Below, piece after piece: positions 17,141-24,237 of a stretch of DNA of 35,484 bases (the stretch's first letter is position 1; each line of letters begins with the position of its first letter). The notes under the pieces were generated by a model. That model did not search any database and had not been told where the DNA came from. It saw nothing but the letters and a program-made list of their open reading frames with translations. Source of the stretch: Bacteroidaceae bacterium (GTDB lineage Bacteria > Bacteroidota > Bacteroidia > Bacteroidales > Bacteroidaceae). The position numbers and the translations under genes were made by a program. Location of the stretch: contig JAFSKR010000007.1 of NCBI GenBank assembly GCA_017448825.1, positions 1-35,484 of the forward strand, written 5' to 3'.

Positions 17141-17201
17141 CTTCACTTTCACCTTTCATGCAGTAGCAGATTTTTCACTTTTCATTTTTACTTTTTCACT
17201 T
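17141..17201. repeat. Low-complexity TTTTTCACTT-type repeat at the end of trpA
   Basis: Degenerate copies of CTTCACTTTC and TTTTTCACTT occur three to four times here and run into the last codons of trpA. Closely similar words (CTTCACTTTCA, CTTTTTCACTT) occur at 6899-6921 in the rlmD promoter region, suggesting a dispersed simple-sequence family. Confidence 0.45.
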
Positions 17202-17969
17202 CTTTAACGCTTCGAGCAGTTTATCCATCGCTTTGGCTGGGTCTCCTGTCTCTTCGTAGAGGTTGACGAACTTGCTGCCAATGATGGCTCCTGAGGCATT
17301 TCGTTGGGCGGCTTCGAGGGTTTGTTTGTTGCTGATGCCGAAGCCGATCATGCGGGGGTGCTTGAGGTTCATGCTGTTGATGCGTGAGAAGTAGGCTTGT
17401 TTGGCATCGTTGAACTCCTTTTGGGCACCCGTGATGGCAGCCGATGAGACCATGTAGATGAAACCGTCGGTATTGTCGTCGATGAAGCGGATGCGTTCGT
17501 CGCTGGTTTCAGGAGTGATGAGCATGATGATGCGGATGTCGTACTTGTCAGCAATAGGCTTGTAGTCTTCCAAGTAGTCCTTGAAGGGGAGGTCGGGGAT
17601 AATGACGCCATCGATACCCACCTCGACGCATCGTTGGCAGAAGGCATCGAAGCCGAACTGCATGATGGGGTTCAGGTACCCCATGAGGATAAGGGGCATT
17701 TTCACGTCGGAGCGAATGCCTTCCAACTGCGAGAACAAGGTCTTGAGTGTCATGCCGTTGCGCAAAGCTTTGGTGGCTGCATCTTGAATGACGGGTCCAT
17801 CTGCCATTGGGTCGGAGAAGGGGATGCCCACTTCTATCATGTCCACGCCTTTCTGTTCCAGCGTGCGGATGGTGTGTGCCGTTCCTTCCAATGTGGGGTG
17901 TCCTGCACAGAAGTATATGGAAAGGATGTTTTCGCTCTTGGTGGCGAATAGTTGATTGATTCTGTTCAT
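17196..17969 (-). CDS. trpA: Tryptophan synthase alpha chain
   Basis: A 257-residue TIM-barrel subunit that cleaves indole-3-glycerol phosphate to indole, which is channelled to TrpB. The catalytic pair is visible in MIEVGIPFSDPMADGP (Glu46 and Asp57). The phosphate-binding C-terminal part has IGFGISNKQT and GAIIGSKFV. Length is normal. It is the last gene of the operon, 6 nt after trpF, and is followed by the terminator at 17072-17125. Its final codons overlap the low-complexity repeat at 17141-17201. Confidence 0.97.
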   Translation of the reverse strand: MNRINQLFATKSENILSIYFCAGHPTLEGTAHTIRTLEQKGVDMIEVGIPFSDPMADGPVIQDAATKALRNGMTLKTLFSQLEGIRSDVKMPLILMGYLNPIMQFGFDAFCQRCVEVGIDGVIIPDLPFKDYLEDYKPIADKYDIRIIMLITPETSDERIRFIDDNTDGFIYMVSSAAITGAQKEFNDAKQAYFSRINSMNLKHPRMIGFGISNKQTLEAAQRNASGAIIGSKFVNLYEETGDPAKAMDKLLEALKK

Positions 17970-17975
17970 GTTGCT

Positions 17976-18614
17976 TTAATGGATTGAATGGGATGAATGG
18001 TTTATTTGAGAGAGAAAGGTGCGGAGGAGCATTGGGTCTTTTATCGCAGGGGCGGTCTCGAACTTACTGTTGAGGTCGATACCCACGAATTGAGGATGAT
18101 GGAACGATAGCACTTTTTCTGCATCGGTGGGTTTGATACCTCCTGTGAGGAGGAAGGGAATGTGCCCTTTGTAACCTTCCAAGATGTTCCAATCAAACTG
18201 TTTGCCACAACCTCCGTAGATGGAGCATCGGGTTTCGAAGAGGAAATAATCGACGATACCTTCGTAGCGTTTGGTTTCGTCCAAGTCGGAGGGTATGGTA
18301 ATGGGAATCATCTTGATTATTTTGACCTCCTTGTTGATGCATGAACGAAGTTGCTTGCAGTAGTCAGGTGTTTCATTTCCATGCAGCTGGATGATATTGA
18401 AACCGAATGTCTTAACACGTTCGAGTATGTCTTGTATGGGTTCGTTCACAAAAGCACCGACTCTCTTGCAATGTTGAGGTAGATAAGTGGGTATTTCGCT
18501 GACGAAGCGTGGTGAATGAGGATAGAAGATGAAGCCCATCCAATCGACACATCCCAGTTCGTCTATCTGACGGATGTTATCCGTGTCGCGCATGCCACAT
18601 ACTTTTACTATCAT
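17976..18614 (-). CDS. trpF: Phosphoribosylanthranilate isomerase
   Basis: A 212-residue TIM-barrel enzyme that isomerises N-(5-phosphoribosyl)anthranilate in the third step of tryptophan synthesis. The N-terminal KVCGMRD motif holds the catalytic Cys (Cys6), and the C-terminal barrel carries LLTGGIKPTDAEKV and FVGIDLNSKFET with the catalytic Asp. It stands as a separate gene rather than the TrpCF fusion of enterobacteria, as usual in Bacteroidota. It follows trpC by 21 nt and precedes trpA by 6 nt. Confidence 0.96.
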   Translation of the reverse strand: MIVKVCGMRDTDNIRQIDELGCVDWMGFIFYPHSPRFVSEIPTYLPQHCKRVGAFVNEPIQDILERVKTFGFNIIQLHGNETPDYCKQLRSCINKEVKIIKMIPITIPSDLDETKRYEGIVDYFLFETRCSIYGGCGKQFDWNILEGYKGHIPFLLTGGIKPTDAEKVLSFHHPQFVGIDLNSKFETAPAIKDPMLLRTFLSQINHSSHSIH

Positions 18615-18635
18615 GGAGTATCGAATTTTATGAAT

Positions 18636-19433
18636 TTATTGGGTGATTTGAGTGATGAAGGTTTTAAGGGCGGCACCTGGGTCTTCCGTCTTCATGAAGG
18701 TCTCGCCGATGAGGAAGCCTCGGAAACCCGCTTCACGCAGTTCTTTCACTGTTTGAGGATTGCTGATTCCGCTTTCAGAGACGAGCACATAGTCCTTGGG
18801 CAAGAGGGCGGCAAGGCGATAGGAGTTCTGTACATCGGTGTGGAACGTGCCGAGGTTGCGGTTGTTTACGCCCACCATGTCGATGCACTCGCCCACATAC
18901 TCCAGTTCTGGCTCTGTGTGCACTTCGAGCAGGGTTTCAAGCCTCAGTTCGTGCGCCTTTTGCGCCAGTTGCTTGCACTCGTCCTTCGTCAGGTCGGCGG
19001 CGATGAGCAACACAGCGTCGGCACCAATCGCTTTGGCTTGATAGAGCTGGTATTCATCGACGATGAAGTCTTTGCGCAGGATGGGGCAGGTGACCATCGG
19101 TCGGGCGATGCGCACAAACCGCAGGTTGCCGCCAAAGTACTTCTCGTCGGTCAGGATGGAGAGGGCACTCGCACCATTCTCACAGTAGGAAGCAGGAATC
19201 ACCTCAGGTTTTCCCTCCTCCTTAATCCAACCTTTCGAGGGGCTTTTGCGCTTGAATTCGGCAATGATGCCCGATGCACTGTTGGCAAGGCTTTCACGCA
19301 TGGAGCGTCGGGGTGTCGTCTCATCAGCCAGCAGCTGCTCCACATTATTATATAATAAGGAGGGAGCCACCTGTGTTTTCTGCTTCTCCACTTCGATGCG
19401 CTTCCAAGCGACGATTTCTTCTAAGATGTCCAT
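18636..19433 (-). CDS. trpC: Indole-3-glycerol phosphate synthase
   Basis: A 265-residue TIM-barrel enzyme closing the indole ring from CdRP. Visible motifs are IIAEFKRKSPSKG (about 56-68, active-site Lys), ASALSILTDEKYFGG, PILRKDFIVDEYQ with the second catalytic Lys, VGVNNRNLGTF, and SESGISNPQTV with GFLIGETFM near the C-terminus. All catalytic blocks are intact and the length is normal. It lies 21 nt after trpD and 21 nt before trpF. Confidence 0.97.
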   Translation of the reverse strand: MDILEEIVAWKRIEVEKQKTQVAPSLLYNNVEQLLADETTPRRSMRESLANSASGIIAEFKRKSPSKGWIKEEGKPEVIPASYCENGASALSILTDEKYFGGNLRFVRIARPMVTCPILRKDFIVDEYQLYQAKAIGADAVLLIAADLTKDECKQLAQKAHELRLETLLEVHTEPELEYVGECIDMVGVNNRNLGTFHTDVQNSYRLAALLPKDYVLVSESGISNPQTVKELREAGFRGFLIGETFMKTEDPGAALKTFITQITQ

Positions 19434-19454
19434 GAGGAGATGAGGTTGATGGGG

Positions 19455-20450
19455 TTAGGAGTTGAGTTCGAGGAATTTCTTGAAGGTTGCCAGTGCCTTG
19501 CCGCTTTCGAGCGATTCACGAGCCACAGCCACAGAGTCGGACATGGAGAGGTTCTTGTCCATCACGCTGATGCCGCAAGCAGCATTGGCGATGACCACAT
19601 TCTTTTGTGCCTCGGCGGAAGTGCCTTCCAGCACGGCATCGAAAATCTTCATGGCATCCTCTGGCGTCTCGCCGCCGTAGATGTCACTCTGTTCGATATA
19701 CTTCAAGCCCAAATCGACAGGTGTGAGCACTTTCTCGAAATTGTTGGTGCAGATTTTGAAACCACTCGTCAGCGAGATTTCGTCGTAGCCATCGTAGGAG
19801 GTGATGACACCGAAGTTGTCGCCAATCTTCTGATGCACGTTGGTGTAGAGCCGCAGTTGTGCCTGGTTGGCGGTGCCGTGCAGGGAGTTCTTGGGATGGC
19901 ACGGATTGACGAGAGGACCCAGCAGGTTGAAGCAGGTGGGCACGCCGAGTGCTTTGCGGGTGGGACCTACAAACTTCATGCCGTAGGCGAAGAGGGGAGC
20001 GTGGAAGTAGCAGATGCCAGCCTCGTCGAGCGAACGTTTCAGTGTGTCGATGTCGTCGGTGAACTTCACGCCGTGTCCCTGCAGCACGTTGCTGGCACCG
20101 CTCACCGACGAGGAACCTCCGTTGCCGTGCTTGGTCACCTTATAGCCAGCACCTGCAATGACGAAGGCTGAGCACGTGGAGATGTTGAACGTGTTTTTGC
20201 CGTCGCCGCCTGTTCCCACGATGTCCAGCGTGTTGTACTCGCTGAAATCCATATACTTGCCCGTTTCGAGCAGTCCTTGACGGAACCCTAAGAGTTCATC
20301 TACCGTCACACCGCGTGTCTGCATCGCCATCAGTAGGGCGGCAATCTGCTGAACGTTGTACTTCTCCTCCACGATGCCAAGCATAATTTCGTGGGTCTCT
20401 TCCTGTGTGAGGGTGTTGCCCTCGATGAGTTTCAAAAGATACTGTTTCAT
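19455..20450 (-). CDS. trpD: Anthranilate phosphoribosyltransferase
   Basis: A 331-residue enzyme that transfers phosphoribose from PRPP to anthranilate. The PRPP-binding motif DIVGTGGDGKNTFNIST (about 77-93) and VTKHGNGGSSSVSGASNVL are intact, and FFN-type conserved blocks (RKALGVPTCFNLLGPLVNP) follow. The start overlaps the trpG stop by 4 nt, so the free-standing TrpG and TrpD are translationally coupled. In some enterobacteria these two are fused. Confidence 0.97.
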   Translation of the reverse strand: MKQYLLKLIEGNTLTQEETHEIMLGIVEEKYNVQQIAALLMAMQTRGVTVDELLGFRQGLLETGKYMDFSEYNTLDIVGTGGDGKNTFNISTCSAFVIAGAGYKVTKHGNGGSSSVSGASNVLQGHGVKFTDDIDTLKRSLDEAGICYFHAPLFAYGMKFVGPTRKALGVPTCFNLLGPLVNPCHPKNSLHGTANQAQLRLYTNVHQKIGDNFGVITSYDGYDEISLTSGFKICTNNFEKVLTPVDLGLKYIEQSDIYGGETPEDAMKIFDAVLEGTSAEAQKNVVIANAACGISVMDKNLSMSDSVAVARESLESGKALATFKKFLELNS

Positions 20451-21019
20451 ATTGAGTTGTGTTTTAACCAGTTGTTGATGATTGTTTTTCCTTCTTTTGT
20501 GAGCACGCTTTCGGGGTGGTACTGAATGCCACGGATGTCGAACTGCTTATGTCGCAGAGACATGATGAAGCCTTCGTCGCTGACGCTGGTCACTTCGAGG
20601 CAATCGGGCAGTCCTTCAGTATCGACCACCCATGAGTGGTAACGTCCCACCTCGATTTTGTCAGGCAATCCCTCGAAGAGATAGTCGCGCATGGTGATGG
20701 TGGCAGGAGTGGCCACGCCGTGATACACTTCGCTCAGGTTGGTCAGGTGTCCGCCAAAGCTTTCGCCGATGGCTTGATGACCGAGGCACACCCCGAGAAT
20801 GGGCTTCTTGCCGGCGTATGTCTTGATGACATCGAGCAGGAGACCCGCCTCACACGGGATGCCAGGACCTGGAGAGAGGATGATTTTGTCAAATGACTCC
20901 AGTTGCTCCATCTGGAACTGGTCGTTGCGATACACCGTCACTTCTGCTCCCAGTTCCTTGACGAGATGACTCAGATTGTAAGTGAATGAGTCATAGTTAT
21001 CGATAATTGCTATTTTCAT
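20447..21019 (-). CDS. trpG: Anthranilate synthase component II (glutamine amidotransferase)
   Basis: A 190-residue class I glutamine amidotransferase that supplies ammonia to TrpE. The nucleophile is Cys78 in ILGVCLGHQAIGE, and the His-Glu pair is in IQYHPESVLT near residues 167-170. The oxyanion motif SPGPGIP is present. Some relatives (PabA) also serve folate synthesis; the position between trpE and trpD supports TrpG. It is 17 nt after trpE and overlaps trpD by 4 nt. Confidence 0.97.
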   Translation of the reverse strand: MKIAIIDNYDSFTYNLSHLVKELGAEVTVYRNDQFQMEQLESFDKIILSPGPGIPCEAGLLLDVIKTYAGKKPILGVCLGHQAIGESFGGHLTNLSEVYHGVATPATITMRDYLFEGLPDKIEVGRYHSWVVDTEGLPDCLEVTSVSDEGFIMSLRHKQFDIRGIQYHPESVLTKEGKTIINNWLKHNSI

Positions 21020-21036: not shown

Positions 21037-22452
21037 TTATAGTTTCTCTGCGATTTCGATGGCTTTCCGTAAAGCCCCGAGTTTGTTGTTCACTTCCTGC
21101 AATTCATATTCCACATTGCTTTTCGCCACGATGCCGCCACCAGCTTGGAACCACAGTTCGTTATTACGGCTGACAAAGGTGCGGATGGTGATGGCTTGGT
21201 TGAGGTTGCCGTCAAATCCGATGCTACCCACACAGCCTCCGTAGGCACCACGGTTGTGTGGCTCGTATTCGCTGATGAGTTGCATGGCTCGCACTTTGGG
21301 TGCGCCCGACAGCGTGCCAGCTGGGAAGGTGTCGATGAAGGCCTGCACGGGGTCAGCCCCATCGTTCAGTTCGCCACTCACACGCGACACCAAATGGATG
21401 ACGTGGCTGTAGAATTGCATATCCTTGTAGAAATCGACTTTCACATCGTGGCAGTTTCGGCTGAGGTCGTTGCGAGCCAAATCCACCAGCATCACGTGTT
21501 CGGCATTCTCTTTGGGGTCATTCTTCAGATAGAGTGCGTTCTGGCGATCCTGTTCGGTGTCGCCTGTGCGTTTGGTGGTGCCGGCGATGGGGTCGATGTA
21601 GGCTCGACCCTCCTCGATGCGGCAATGGGTCTCGGGACTTGAACCGAAGATGCGGAAACCACCGAAATCCATGTAGAACAGGTAAGGCGACGGGTTGATG
21701 CTTCGCAAGGCGCGGTAGAGCTTGAAGTCATCGCCCTCGTACTTCTGCTTGAACCGGCGCGAGAGCACTATCTGGAACACGTCGCCGCGCAGACAGTGGC
21801 GGATGCCTCGACGGATGTTCTCACGGTGCTCGTCGTCCGTCAGCGTTGACCAATAGTTGCCCACGGGGTGGAATCCGTACTGCTGGTAGGGGCGGTTGTT
21901 CACGTCGTGCTCCAGTTGGTCGAGGTCGTCCTGCTCGCCGTCAGCCAGCAGTTCGATGAGTTTCAGTTCGTTCTTGAAGTGGTCGAACACGATGTAATCT
22001 TTGTAGAGGATGTACTGGAGGTCGGGTGCGTCGTTCTGCTCTTGTGTCTCGTCCTTCACGTCGATGTGCTCGAAGTAGCGCACGGCATTGAAGGTTGTGT
22101 AGCCAAAGAGTGTGCAGTTGCCCTTGCCCTCGCCCGTGATGTTGAAGTGTGCCAAGAAGTCGTTGATAAACTGTGCTGTGTTGTAGCTGTCCGTGATAGG
22201 GGTGCGTGTCTCCTCTCCGTTGGGGAACTTCATCACGCCCACGCCATGTTCCACCGAAACGCTGGCGATGGGGTGGACACAGATGAACGAGCGGCTATTC
22301 TTCCCGCTGTGATAGTCAGAACTTTCCATCAGTGCGCTCTGAGGGTAGGCATCGCGCACTCGCATATACACACTGACCGGTGTGTTCAGGTCGCCAAGAA
22401 TCTTTTTGGAGGCGGTATGATAGTGATACATAGTGCTTATGGTTTGATACAT
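21037..22452 (-). CDS. trpE: Anthranilate synthase component I
   Basis: A 471-residue chorismate-using enzyme. Near the N-terminus PQSALMESSD (about 37-46) corresponds to the LLES-type tryptophan-binding motif, so feedback inhibition by Trp is expected. The C-terminal catalytic domain has FQIVLSRRF, DPIAGTTKRTGD, HVMLVDLARNDLSR, GTLSGAPKVRAM and QAGGGIVAKSN. The ATG at 22452 is chosen because it follows an A-rich stretch (ATCAAACA); the frame extends farther up only through a GTG lying inside the 23-bp hairpin repeats. An ATG at 22431 is an alternative. It is separated from trpB by 159 nt. Confidence 0.96.
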   Translation of the reverse strand: MYQTISTMYHYHTASKKILGDLNTPVSVYMRVRDAYPQSALMESSDYHSGKNSRSFICVHPIASVSVEHGVGVMKFPNGEETRTPITDSYNTAQFINDFLAHFNITGEGKGNCTLFGYTTFNAVRYFEHIDVKDETQEQNDAPDLQYILYKDYIVFDHFKNELKLIELLADGEQDDLDQLEHDVNNRPYQQYGFHPVGNYWSTLTDDEHRENIRRGIRHCLRGDVFQIVLSRRFKQKYEGDDFKLYRALRSINPSPYLFYMDFGGFRIFGSSPETHCRIEEGRAYIDPIAGTTKRTGDTEQDRQNALYLKNDPKENAEHVMLVDLARNDLSRNCHDVKVDFYKDMQFYSHVIHLVSRVSGELNDGADPVQAFIDTFPAGTLSGAPKVRAMQLISEYEPHNRGAYGGCVGSIGFDGNLNQAITIRTFVSRNNELWFQAGGGIVAKSNVEYELQEVNNKLGALRKAIEIAEKL

Positions 22453-22510
22453 TGTTTGATGTTGCTGGTTTGTAGAGGTACTGTAAAGGAGTGCTTCCAC
22501 ATCCTCTAAA

Positions 22511-22575
22511 CCGACGTGCCCCACGTCGGTAAGGCGGCGTGCCTCACGTCGGTCGACCGATGTGCCCCACGTCGG
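22511..22575. repeat. Three tandem 23-bp hairpin units between trpB and trpE
   Basis: Three units repeat at exactly 23-bp spacing: 22511-22529, about 22534-22552 and 22557-22575. The first reads CCGACGTG-CCC-CACGTCGG, a perfect 8-bp stem; units two and three keep the stem with one or two changes that mostly preserve pairing through G-T. In the trp transcript they would form three adjacent GC-rich hairpins about 60 nt before the trpE start. Confidence 0.85.
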
Positions 22576-22611: not shown

Positions 22612-23796
22612 TTATTGTTGATGTTTCAGGTAAGTGTCCAAGTCCTTGTCGCCTCTTCCGCTCACGGTGAGCACAACGACGGTGTCCTTCGTGAACAGGT
22701 CTTTCACCTTGGGCAGCAACGCCAAGGCATGAGCACTTTCGAGAGCAGGGATGATGCCTTCCATGCGCGTCAGTTCAAAGGCAGCTTGTAGGGCTTCGTC
22801 GTCGTTGGCTGGGAGCACTTGGGCACGTCCCGTCTCGTAGAGGTTGCAGTGGATGGGGCCCGTTCCCGGATAGTCGAGGCCAGCCGAAATGGAGTAAGGC
22901 TCGATGATTTGGCCATCCTCCGTCTGCATGAGCTTGATGCGGCTGCCGTGCAAGATGCCTACGGTGCCCACCTGCATGCTGGCAGCGGTTTGACCGCTCT
23001 CGATGCCGAGACCTCCGGCTTCACCGAGGATTATCTTCACACGCTCGTCGTCGATGTAATGGTAGATGGTGCCAGCGGCGTTCGAGCCTCCACCCACGCA
23101 GGCCATCAGATAGTCAGGGTAATCTCTGCCAATCTTTTCCTCAAGCTGCCACTTGATTTCCTCCGAGATGACCGACTGCAAGCGTGCCACCATGTCGGGA
23201 TAGGGATGCGGCCCCACGGTGCTGCCTATTATATAGAATGTGTCGGCTGGGTGGCAGCACCAGTCGCGAATGGCTTCGTTGGTGGCATCCTTGAGCGTCT
23301 TGTTTCCGCTCTCCACAGGCACCACCGTTGCGCCCAACATCTTCATGCGCTCCACGTTGACGTGTTGACGCTGCACGTCCAACGCACCTTGATACACCGT
23401 ACACGGCATATCCATGAGTGCGCAGGCGGTGGCGGTGGCCACACCATGCTGACCAGCTCCCGTCTCTGCGATGATGCGCTTCTTGCCCATCTGCTTGGCA
23501 AGGAGAATCTGCCCCAACGCATTGTTGATTTTGTGGGCACCCGTGTGGTTGAGGTCTTCGCGCTTGAGGTAGAGCTGACAGCCGTACTTCTCGCTCATGC
23601 GCTTGGCGTAATAGAGTGGGGATGGGCGACCCACGTAGTCCTTCAGCAAGGCATGGAACTCCTGCTTGAATGCTTCACTCTCCAAGATGGGCAGGTATGC
23701 CTTTTTCAAGTCCTCCACCGTCTTGTACAGAATCTCTGGAATGTAGGCCCCTCCGAACTGTCCGTAGAAGCCATTTTCATCTACTTGGTATGTCAT
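22612..23796 (-). CDS. trpB: Tryptophan synthase beta chain
   Basis: A 394-residue PLP enzyme that condenses indole with serine. [14 protein letters not shown] contains the PLP Lys (Lys89); [14 protein letters not shown] and the glycine-rich phosphate loop GGGSNAAG are intact, and the C-terminus has [13 protein letters not shown]. The ATG at 23796 ([16 protein letters not shown]) matches the usual start; the frame runs on to 24015 only through the inverted-repeat element. It is the first structural gene of the operon, preceded by a Trp-rich leader peptide and an attenuator hairpin, and is separated from trpA, its partner, by the whole operon. Confidence 0.97.
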
Positions 23797-23802
23797 AATT
23801 GA

Positions 23803-23982
23803 AGACCCCCTCTGCCCTTTGGGCTTTCCGTCCTCTATGGGGAGAACCGTCCGGCTTGTTTGCTGCTGGGGGATTTTGTTAAGTGATTGTTTGATTTGTT
23901 TATCTTTTGCCTTTTTCTTCCCCCAACATCCCGCATGGTCTCTCCCCATAGAGGGGAAGATGCCAAAGGGCAGAGGGGGTCT
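23803..23982. repeat. 180-bp inverted-repeat (foldback) element abutting the trpB start
   Basis: The left arm from 23803 and the right arm ending at 23982 begin with the same 20 bp inverted (AGACCCCCTCTGCCCTTTGG), then diverge for about 9 bp, then share CCTCTATGGGGAGA, and show weaker similarity farther in to a TGGGGGA block. The arms total roughly 65 bp each around an AT-rich core (about 23873-23915). It looks like a non-coding foldback or MITE-like intergenic repeat. The left arm ends 6 bp from the trpB ATG, so the transcript would carry a long hairpin against the ribosome binding region. Confidence 0.8.
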
Positions 23983-23997
23983 GTGGTTTATCTTACG

Positions 23998-24033
23998 AAA
24001 AAGAGCCTGTCGCAAGTACGACAGGCTCTTTTT
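23998..24033 (-). terminator. trp attenuator: 15-bp hairpin followed by T run
   Basis: AAAAAGAGCCTGTCG (minus strand, 24019-24033) pairs perfectly with CGACAGGCTCTTTTT (23998-24012) around a 6-nt loop. It lies 49 nt after the stop of the Trp-rich leader peptide and upstream of trpB. No complete gene ends ahead of it on the minus strand, so its sensible role is conditional termination of the trp transcript. The A-run on the other side makes it formally bidirectional, but no plus-strand gene ends here either. Confidence 0.85.
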
Positions 24034-24082
24034 GTGCTATGCTTTTTAGGGTTGGCTTTGCATAGGGAAATCACCATTGGAC

Positions 24083-24142
24083 TTACGACTCTTTGAATCC
24101 TAAGCTACGCCACCACCAATATGTCTTGTTGTTCTGTGTCAT
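24083..24142 (-). CDS. trpL: trp operon leader peptide with three consecutive Trp codons
   Basis: A 19-residue peptide, MTQNNKTYWWWRSLGFKES, read from the ATG at 24142 to a TAA at 24083-24085. Codons 9-11 (24110-24118) are TGG TGG TGG. The start lies about 13 nt after the predicted transcription start of a consensus promoter (24162-24193), and the stop lies 49 nt before a perfect terminator hairpin. Three Trp codons in a row in so short a frame directly ahead of trpB are very unlikely by chance. By analogy with enterobacterial trpL, ribosome stalling at these codons when charged tRNA-Trp is scarce should prevent termination. A longer in-frame ORF (from 24322) exists but begins upstream of the promoter. 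Confidence 0.88.
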   Translation of the reverse strand: MTQNNKTYWWWRSLGFKES

Positions 24143-24161
24143 GTTTTTGTCATTTCGTTTG

Positions 24162-24193
24162 CAAAGTAACGACATTTCTTTCAAATGGACAAA
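24162..24193 (-). promoter_or_regulatory. Promoter of the trp operon
   Basis: On the minus strand TTTG (24190-24193), a 20-bp spacer and TTACTTTG (24162-24169; one mismatch to TAnnTTTG) form a near-consensus Bacteroidota promoter. Initiation near 24155 would place the leader-peptide ATG about 13 nt into the transcript. Confidence 0.7.
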
Positions 24194-24237
24194 TAAAAAC
24201 GAGAAAAAATGACATTTCGATGAAAAGTGATGCCTTT

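Follow-up and report, generated by a model that had tools for sequence, protein, structure and literature searches.

A candidate Trp-codon attenuator before the trp operon of Bacteroidales, with an antiterminator predicted to target the terminator loop and 3′ arm

The window, meaning the whole 35,484-nt stretch of DNA that was analyzed, comes from a genome assembly of 2.95 Mb that is 86% complete. Its minus strand carries, in order, a promoter, a short leader ORF, a 49-nt gap, an intrinsic terminator, a repeat insertion of ~180 nt and the genes trpB-E-G-D-C-F-A, the gene order having been assigned with NCBIfam. The promoter, the 19-codon leader with three consecutive Trp codons (WWW), the gap and the hairpin before trpB had all been described in an earlier, sequence-only reading of this DNA, and all are present; the hairpin, then called perfect, consists of 15 Watson-Crick pairs and one G-U pair. 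The features are as follows, numbered in window coordinates.

24162–24193, minus strand: promoter, with TTTG at 24193–24190 and TACTTTG at 24168–24162
24083–24142, minus strand: leader ORF MTQNNKTYWWWRSLGFKES, 19 codons, with TGG TGG TGG at 24118–24110
24095–24104, minus strand: segment 1, CUUAGGAUUC, 5′ arm of the protector hairpin, within the leader ORF directly after WWW
24081–24090, minus strand: segment 2, AGUCGUAAGU, which holds the leader stop codon and has segment 1 or segment 4 as partner
24037–24065, minus strand: small hairpin CUAUGC...GCAUAG between leader and terminator, arms at 24065–24060 and 24042–24037
23998–24033, minus strand: intrinsic terminator formed by segments 3 and 4, with 15 Watson-Crick pairs, one G-U pair and a loop of 4 nt
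24008–24017, minus strand: segment 4, ACUUGCGACA, the terminator loop and top of the 3′ arm, partner of segment 2
22612–23796, minus strand: trpB, the first structural gene, ATG at 23796; TIGR00263, 571.9 bits, over the cut-off
21037–22524, minus strand: trpE; best family TIGR00564, 412.5 bits, under the curated cut-off of 517.7
17196–21019, minus strand: trpG, trpD, trpC, trpF and trpA; NCBIfam matches, trpF under the curated cut-off of its best family

The TTTG and TACTTTG elements have the −33/−7 promoter form of Bacteroidota. The corresponding pattern, TTTG-N16..24-TAN1-2TTTG, lies 5′ of 98 of 139 Bacteroidales leaders, as against 8 of 695 dinucleotide shuffles. A consensus promoter and terminator scan of the window listed neither the leader promoter nor the leader terminator. 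As its rules read, it looks for sigma-70 hexamers and free T residues after the stem; here the T run sits in the stem, paired with an A run. The leader region folds with a z of −3.7 relative to shuffles. By eye, the window and its close relatives share the CTATGC/GCATAG hairpin. The nearest loci in the collection belong to metagenome-assembled genomes assigned to Bacteroidaceae, Prevotellaceae or Bacteroidales, and rumens are the source of many. A four-codon ORF (ATG ACA AAA ACA TGA, 24153–24139) overlaps the leader start codon by ATGA.

Between the attenuator region and trpB lies an imperfect inverted repeat of ~180 nt (23803–23982) that ends 6 nt before the trpB ATG and folds at −99 kcal/mol (z −9.8). 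A query spanning this repeat gave 53 matches within its own genome, counting itself and its own arms, and for this reason it resembles an insertion of the MITE or REP type. The leader end is 286 nt from trpB in the window versus 113 nt in two relatives (L007 and L035), and the insertion could affect trpB translation.

No Rfam family reached its gathering threshold over the window, T-box and riboswitch families included, and among 14 lax Rfam hits over 23950–24220 Trp_leader, T-box and riboswitch were all absent. The Trp repressor (PF01371) was found in none of 21 genomes, the window's own being 86% complete, in a search whose control was positive in E. coli and B. subtilis.

Searches with TrpB in 121 family genomes, 198 order genomes and 80 loci of a public collection, with further stretches fetched, yielded 219 loci with 207 distinct upstream regions. 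Counting as a leader any ATG ORF that holds two Trp codons within four codons (W..W) and lies no more than 420 nt from trpB, we found one in 148 of the 207 upstreams. Among Bacteroidales trpB upstreams without a long plus-strand frame ending within 250 nt of trpB, a Trp-rich leader was present in 116 of 123 cases, versus 21 of 615 dinucleotide-shuffled upstreams. Where such a frame does end within 250 nt the figure was 32 of 84, as would be expected if these trpB genes are often operon-internal (operon position was checked for part of the loci). Some relatives have YWRW in place of YWWW. Outside the order, a leader ORF lay within 500 nt upstream in all 29 trpE loci fetched from other orders of the class, namely those of the 29 highest-scoring among 34 same-class genomes that had a TrpE match. 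Of 20 trpE upstreams sampled from the phylum's other classes, 12 had, by eye, a clear WW leader and terminator. A terminator was found by a defined rule for 142 of the 148 leaders; the six others were L057, L058, L075, L089, L189 and L209, of which L058 and L075 visibly have one. Removal of these six and of L139 and L191, dropped by eye, left 140 leaders for the comparisons below; L025 and L110 were left out of one leader set. No His leader was seen by eye before hisG of the same genome, and a His-codon pattern scan gave many scattered matches.

Placed side by side, the leaders point to three coupled segments: 1, 2 and 4. Segment 1, right after the Trp codons, reads CUUA, CUCA or UUCG in relatives; segment 2 reads UCGUAAGU, UCGUGAG, UCGCGAA or something very different such as ACGUUGUGGG; and segment 4 reads ACUUACGA, ACUCACGA, AGCGAC or CACAACGU. 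In the window the leader end UCGUAAGU, with its internal stop codon, can pair either with the codons just 3′ of WWW or with the terminator loop and the top of its 3′ arm. To the sequence-only reading a strong classical antiterminator was not obvious; the comparison with relatives yields a covarying candidate directed at the terminator loop and 3′ arm. An AAAGAG-TCG element, proposed there as a terminator mimic that could pair with the 3′ arm, is real and close to the true pairing, the core of which is actually UCGUAAGU (24088–24081). Pairing of TTAGG with CCTAA gained no support; TTAGG belongs to a segment whose covarying partner is the leader end.

The RNA covariation check was run as a helix scan without preset pairing, for which one alignment was made of the 140 leaders and another of their terminators (137 distinct rows). 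Among 1794 seven-column antiparallel leader-by-terminator helices, 2:4 scored best (0.336, with a mean of 0.072 and sd of 0.046; 90% paired), and the runner-up, on another diagonal, reached 0.302 with 67% paired. When terminators were re-dealt among leaders the mean was 0.245, as high as this because the sequences are related, and the observed 2:4 score was reached in 0 of 200 permutations. Helix 1:2 was the best of 820 four-column leader-by-leader helices and was 97% paired. Single-column mutual information was noisy: its top two pairs were non-complementary, and the 2:4 diagonal appeared several times in the best 30.

A separate MAFFT alignment comprised 38 diverse rows taken by hand from 45 computed references (L106, L112, L123, L125, L131, L133 and L175 were left out), and groups whose segment 2 reads differently, e.g. 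L054 and L068, lie outside it; its covariation figures therefore rest on a hand-picked set. In these rows 89.9% of 2:4 cells were paired versus 27.4–45.1% in slid registers, and 26 cells were changed on both sides versus 7.6 in shuffles. For 1:2 the corresponding values were 84.4% versus 30.5–38.1%, and 31 cells versus 11.7, with a covariation score that none of 500 shuffles attained. Stricter measures were weaker: five pairs changed on both sides in each helix, a count reached by 20 of 500 shuffles for 2:4 and 43 of 500 for 1:2, and the numbers of further pair types were reached by 23 and 66 of 500, respectively. The terminator itself had 95.6% of cells paired and changes on both sides in 10 of 12 pairs. 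One segment 2 column is informative for both helices in 96 rows: when it holds A, C stands opposite it in segment 1 in 1 of 45 rows and in segment 4 in 0 of 45; when it holds G, C stands opposite in 36 of 51 and 28 of 51. An independent-pairs test on the TrpB tree counted two to three events in the same direction and none opposite, a small number of events. Deep conservation, together with covariation of two mutually exclusive helices, supports the earlier proposal that a Trp-codon leader attenuates this operon, as far as comparison of sequences can.

Of the 140 Bacteroidales leaders, 87 have their stop codon (59 UAA and 28 UGA) at the same segment 2 columns; it comes later in 37 and earlier in 16, and in other orders it falls within CGUGA in 13 of 29. 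The column that separates UAA from UGA covaries with segments 1 and 4. In several relatives (e.g. L011 and L013) the frame reads through segment 2 without a stop and the RNA letters are still kept, which argues for selection on the RNA.

Covariation alone does not give the sign of an effect, and segment 2 might join the terminator loop in a pseudoknot that strengthens termination rather than blocking it, an arrangement with which a coexisting lower stem would be compatible. We regard this as very unlikely: segment 4 takes in ~4 nt of the 3′ strand of the stem, so 2:4 and the terminator compete, and under a pseudoknot of this kind starvation would shut the operon.

Which part of the terminator segment 2 complements was assessed on 116 clusters, into which 167 leaders of the class had been sorted (L110 and L247 left out). 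Against the loop and top of the 3′ arm, segment 2 gave −11.0 kcal/mol and its shuffled versions −6.9 (mean z −2.1, p 2e-19), and 62 of the 116 clusters were individually at p ≤0.05. Against the terminator 5′ arm the same segment was without signal (z 0.05), and the next leader segment gave z 0.29 against the 5′ arm and −0.10 against the loop and 3′ arm. A second helix to the 5′ arm, considered as a general feature, was rejected since its signal was absent over these clusters. Duplexes calculated with the whole hairpin did not locate the target on the terminator.

A mirror-image-window test used the whole leader (L110, L247, L285 and L238 left out). In 96 Bacteroidales clusters the loop and 3′ arm gave z −1.01 (p 8e-13) and the 5′ arm z −0.16 (p 0.15); the 3′ side came out ahead in 65 of the clusters. 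Other orders of the class (19 clusters) showed both signals, −1.03 for the 5′ arm and −1.12 for the loop and 3′ arm, and in some of their leaders (e.g. L229 and L233) 2:4 can be lengthened by another short helix, formed with the 5′ arm. Among 11 clusters from the phylum's other classes, the 5′ arm had a mean z of −2.22 (p 0.005) and the loop and 3′ arm −0.28. An antiterminator of the classical E. coli type, in which a leader segment pairs with the terminator 5′ arm (II:III), thus seems to have its counterpart in the outlying classes and, in part, in other orders; we consider it improbable for the Bacteroidales leader, given the null result in the 96 Bacteroidales clusters and the flat 5′-arm values for segment 2 and the next segment over the 116 clusters of the class. 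If this small outlying sample, with its apparent E. coli arrangement, is a guide, the target shifted within Bacteroidia, in a direction that we infer. Five leaders from other orders (L221, L232, L235, L240 and L249) look 5′-arm type or mixed, and through them the shift may be traceable within the class.

The order in which the structures could form was calculated by stepwise folding of the window, on the assumption that everything upstream and the 15 nt from the first base of the A-site codon are held unpaired. With a ribosome on W1, W2 or W3, the probability of 2:4 was 0.96–1.00 over the steps from −2 to +2 nt relative to the point at which ACUUGCGA is fully exposed. If the ribosome was absent or stood at the stop codon, dominance passed to the terminator 0 to +2 nt after that point. 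With 6 nt more exposed, or at full length, the terminator won at equilibrium under every condition, and therefore antitermination, if any, must be kinetic; the local terminator is calculated to be far more stable than 2:4, and its lower stem remains free to pair later despite 2:4. Among 115 cluster representatives, 2:4 exceeded 0.5 in 111 on stalling, in 54 without a ribosome and in 5 with the ribosome at the stop codon. Swapped chimeras under stalling also exceeded 0.5 in 249 of 345 cases, so the folding measure is weakly specific (L110, L247 and L238 were left out of the representatives and chimeras).

The stability of the local terminator would also suit a scheme in which no alternative RNA helix matters and the stalled ribosome acts on RNA polymerase by being coupled or close to it. 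The two covarying helices, with segment 2 in common, would then lack a reason to persist, and we hold this scheme to be extremely unlikely. The sequence-only reading had anticipated a departure from the E. coli mechanism; the departure itself stands, in that the antiterminator targets the loop and 3′ arm, and the suggestion of ribosome proximity without an antiterminator falls away.

These observations provide the basis for a model that we hold with high confidence, in which the locus attenuates transcription of the trp operon by way of the ribosome and a stalled ribosome frees segment 2 to capture the terminator loop and 3′ arm. When charged tRNA-Trp is low, the ribosome would stall on WWW and mask segment 1, leaving segment 2 unpaired. 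As the terminator loop and then the top of the 3′ arm leave RNA polymerase, segment 2 would zip onto them before the hairpin nucleates, and with 2:4 formed the polymerase would get past the U tract into trpBEGDCFA. When Trp is ample, the ribosome would reach the stop codon inside segment 2 and mask that segment, allowing the terminator to form; after ribosome release, or without translation, segment 2 would fold onto segment 1 and the terminator would again form. We infer that in cells the leader is translated, ribosomes stall on it and 2:4 antiterminates by acting kinetically, the antiterminator probably working through a head start. As a broader proposition, which we favor somewhat over its negation, Bacteroidota would share a phylum-wide Trp-codon attenuator whose target moved within Bacteroidia from the 5′ arm to the loop and 3′ arm, with kinetic capture of the loop blocking a hairpin that is more stable at equilibrium and with a stop codon inside the switch segment tying the choice of UAA or UGA to RNA pairing.

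Similar modules occur before other genes. A pattern scan of the 121 family genomes gave matches in 79, consisting of trpB leaders plus many chance matches, and a reversed control pattern matched too; seven places were picked from it by hand for a closer look. A leader and terminator module precedes trpD at two of them (L331 and L332) and a TrpB2-type gene (TIGR01415/NF009057) at five (L333–L337). The trpD modules of L331 (Trp codons near 222) and L332 (near 229) lie directly 5′ of the gene and are the second of their kind on the contig, where a trpB leader stands upstream of them. Of the five genomes with a TrpB2 module, four (G019, G030, G046 and G116) gave no TrpB match at 1e-60.

In the E. 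coli trp attenuator, II:III is the antiterminator and III:IV the terminator (PMC1183508). The Bacteroidales leaders resemble this system and the proteobacterial Trp_leader in having tandem Trp codons in a short leader ORF, an intrinsic terminator before the trp genes and a 1:2 leader helix that protects the terminator. They differ in that the antiterminator targets the terminator loop and 3′ arm rather than the 5′ arm, the stop codon lies within segment 2 in 87 of 140 leaders, and an Rfam match is absent. We would therefore set the Bacteroidales leader apart from the E. coli type, because a 5′-arm antiterminator was looked for in Bacteroidales and not found, and describe it as a putative case of ribosome-mediated attenuation with a new antiterminator target.

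In the same phylum, a study on Flavobacterium psychrophilum reports strong clues that leader-peptide attenuators lie upstream of amino-acid operons, and it also describes conserved 5′ elements (pheA, hisG) without Rfam hits; trp is not named and no antiterminator is given in the available part of that text (PMC9723704). In the same order, sORFs in long 5′ UTRs of Bacteroides thetaiotaomicron were called reminiscent of attenuation leader peptides, with no trp example or mechanism in the passages concerned; "tryptophan" occurs 0 times in the main text (PMC7366714). Actinobacterial trp attenuators, from another phylum, are likewise Trp-dependent (PMC4833913). A search over titles and abstract starts, with most subscription journals outside its coverage, returned no paper that deals with trp attenuation in Bacteroidota or with an antiterminator directed at a terminator loop and 3′ arm. 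A 2010 comparative survey of attenuation by Lopatovskaya et al. may cover Bacteroidetes, and we therefore make no priority claim for the bare idea of attenuation there.

If the model is true, a dominant gut and environmental phylum has its own version of the textbook trp switch, and the target of an antiterminator can shift along the terminator in evolution. Initiation in Bacteroidota is largely non-Shine-Dalgarno; kinetic control would be predicted in bacteria in which this initiation and transcription-translation coupling have been little studied. The leader and its switch segments would also serve as a signature in searches for candidate Trp-responsive genes, of which trpD and TrpB2-type genes are examples here.
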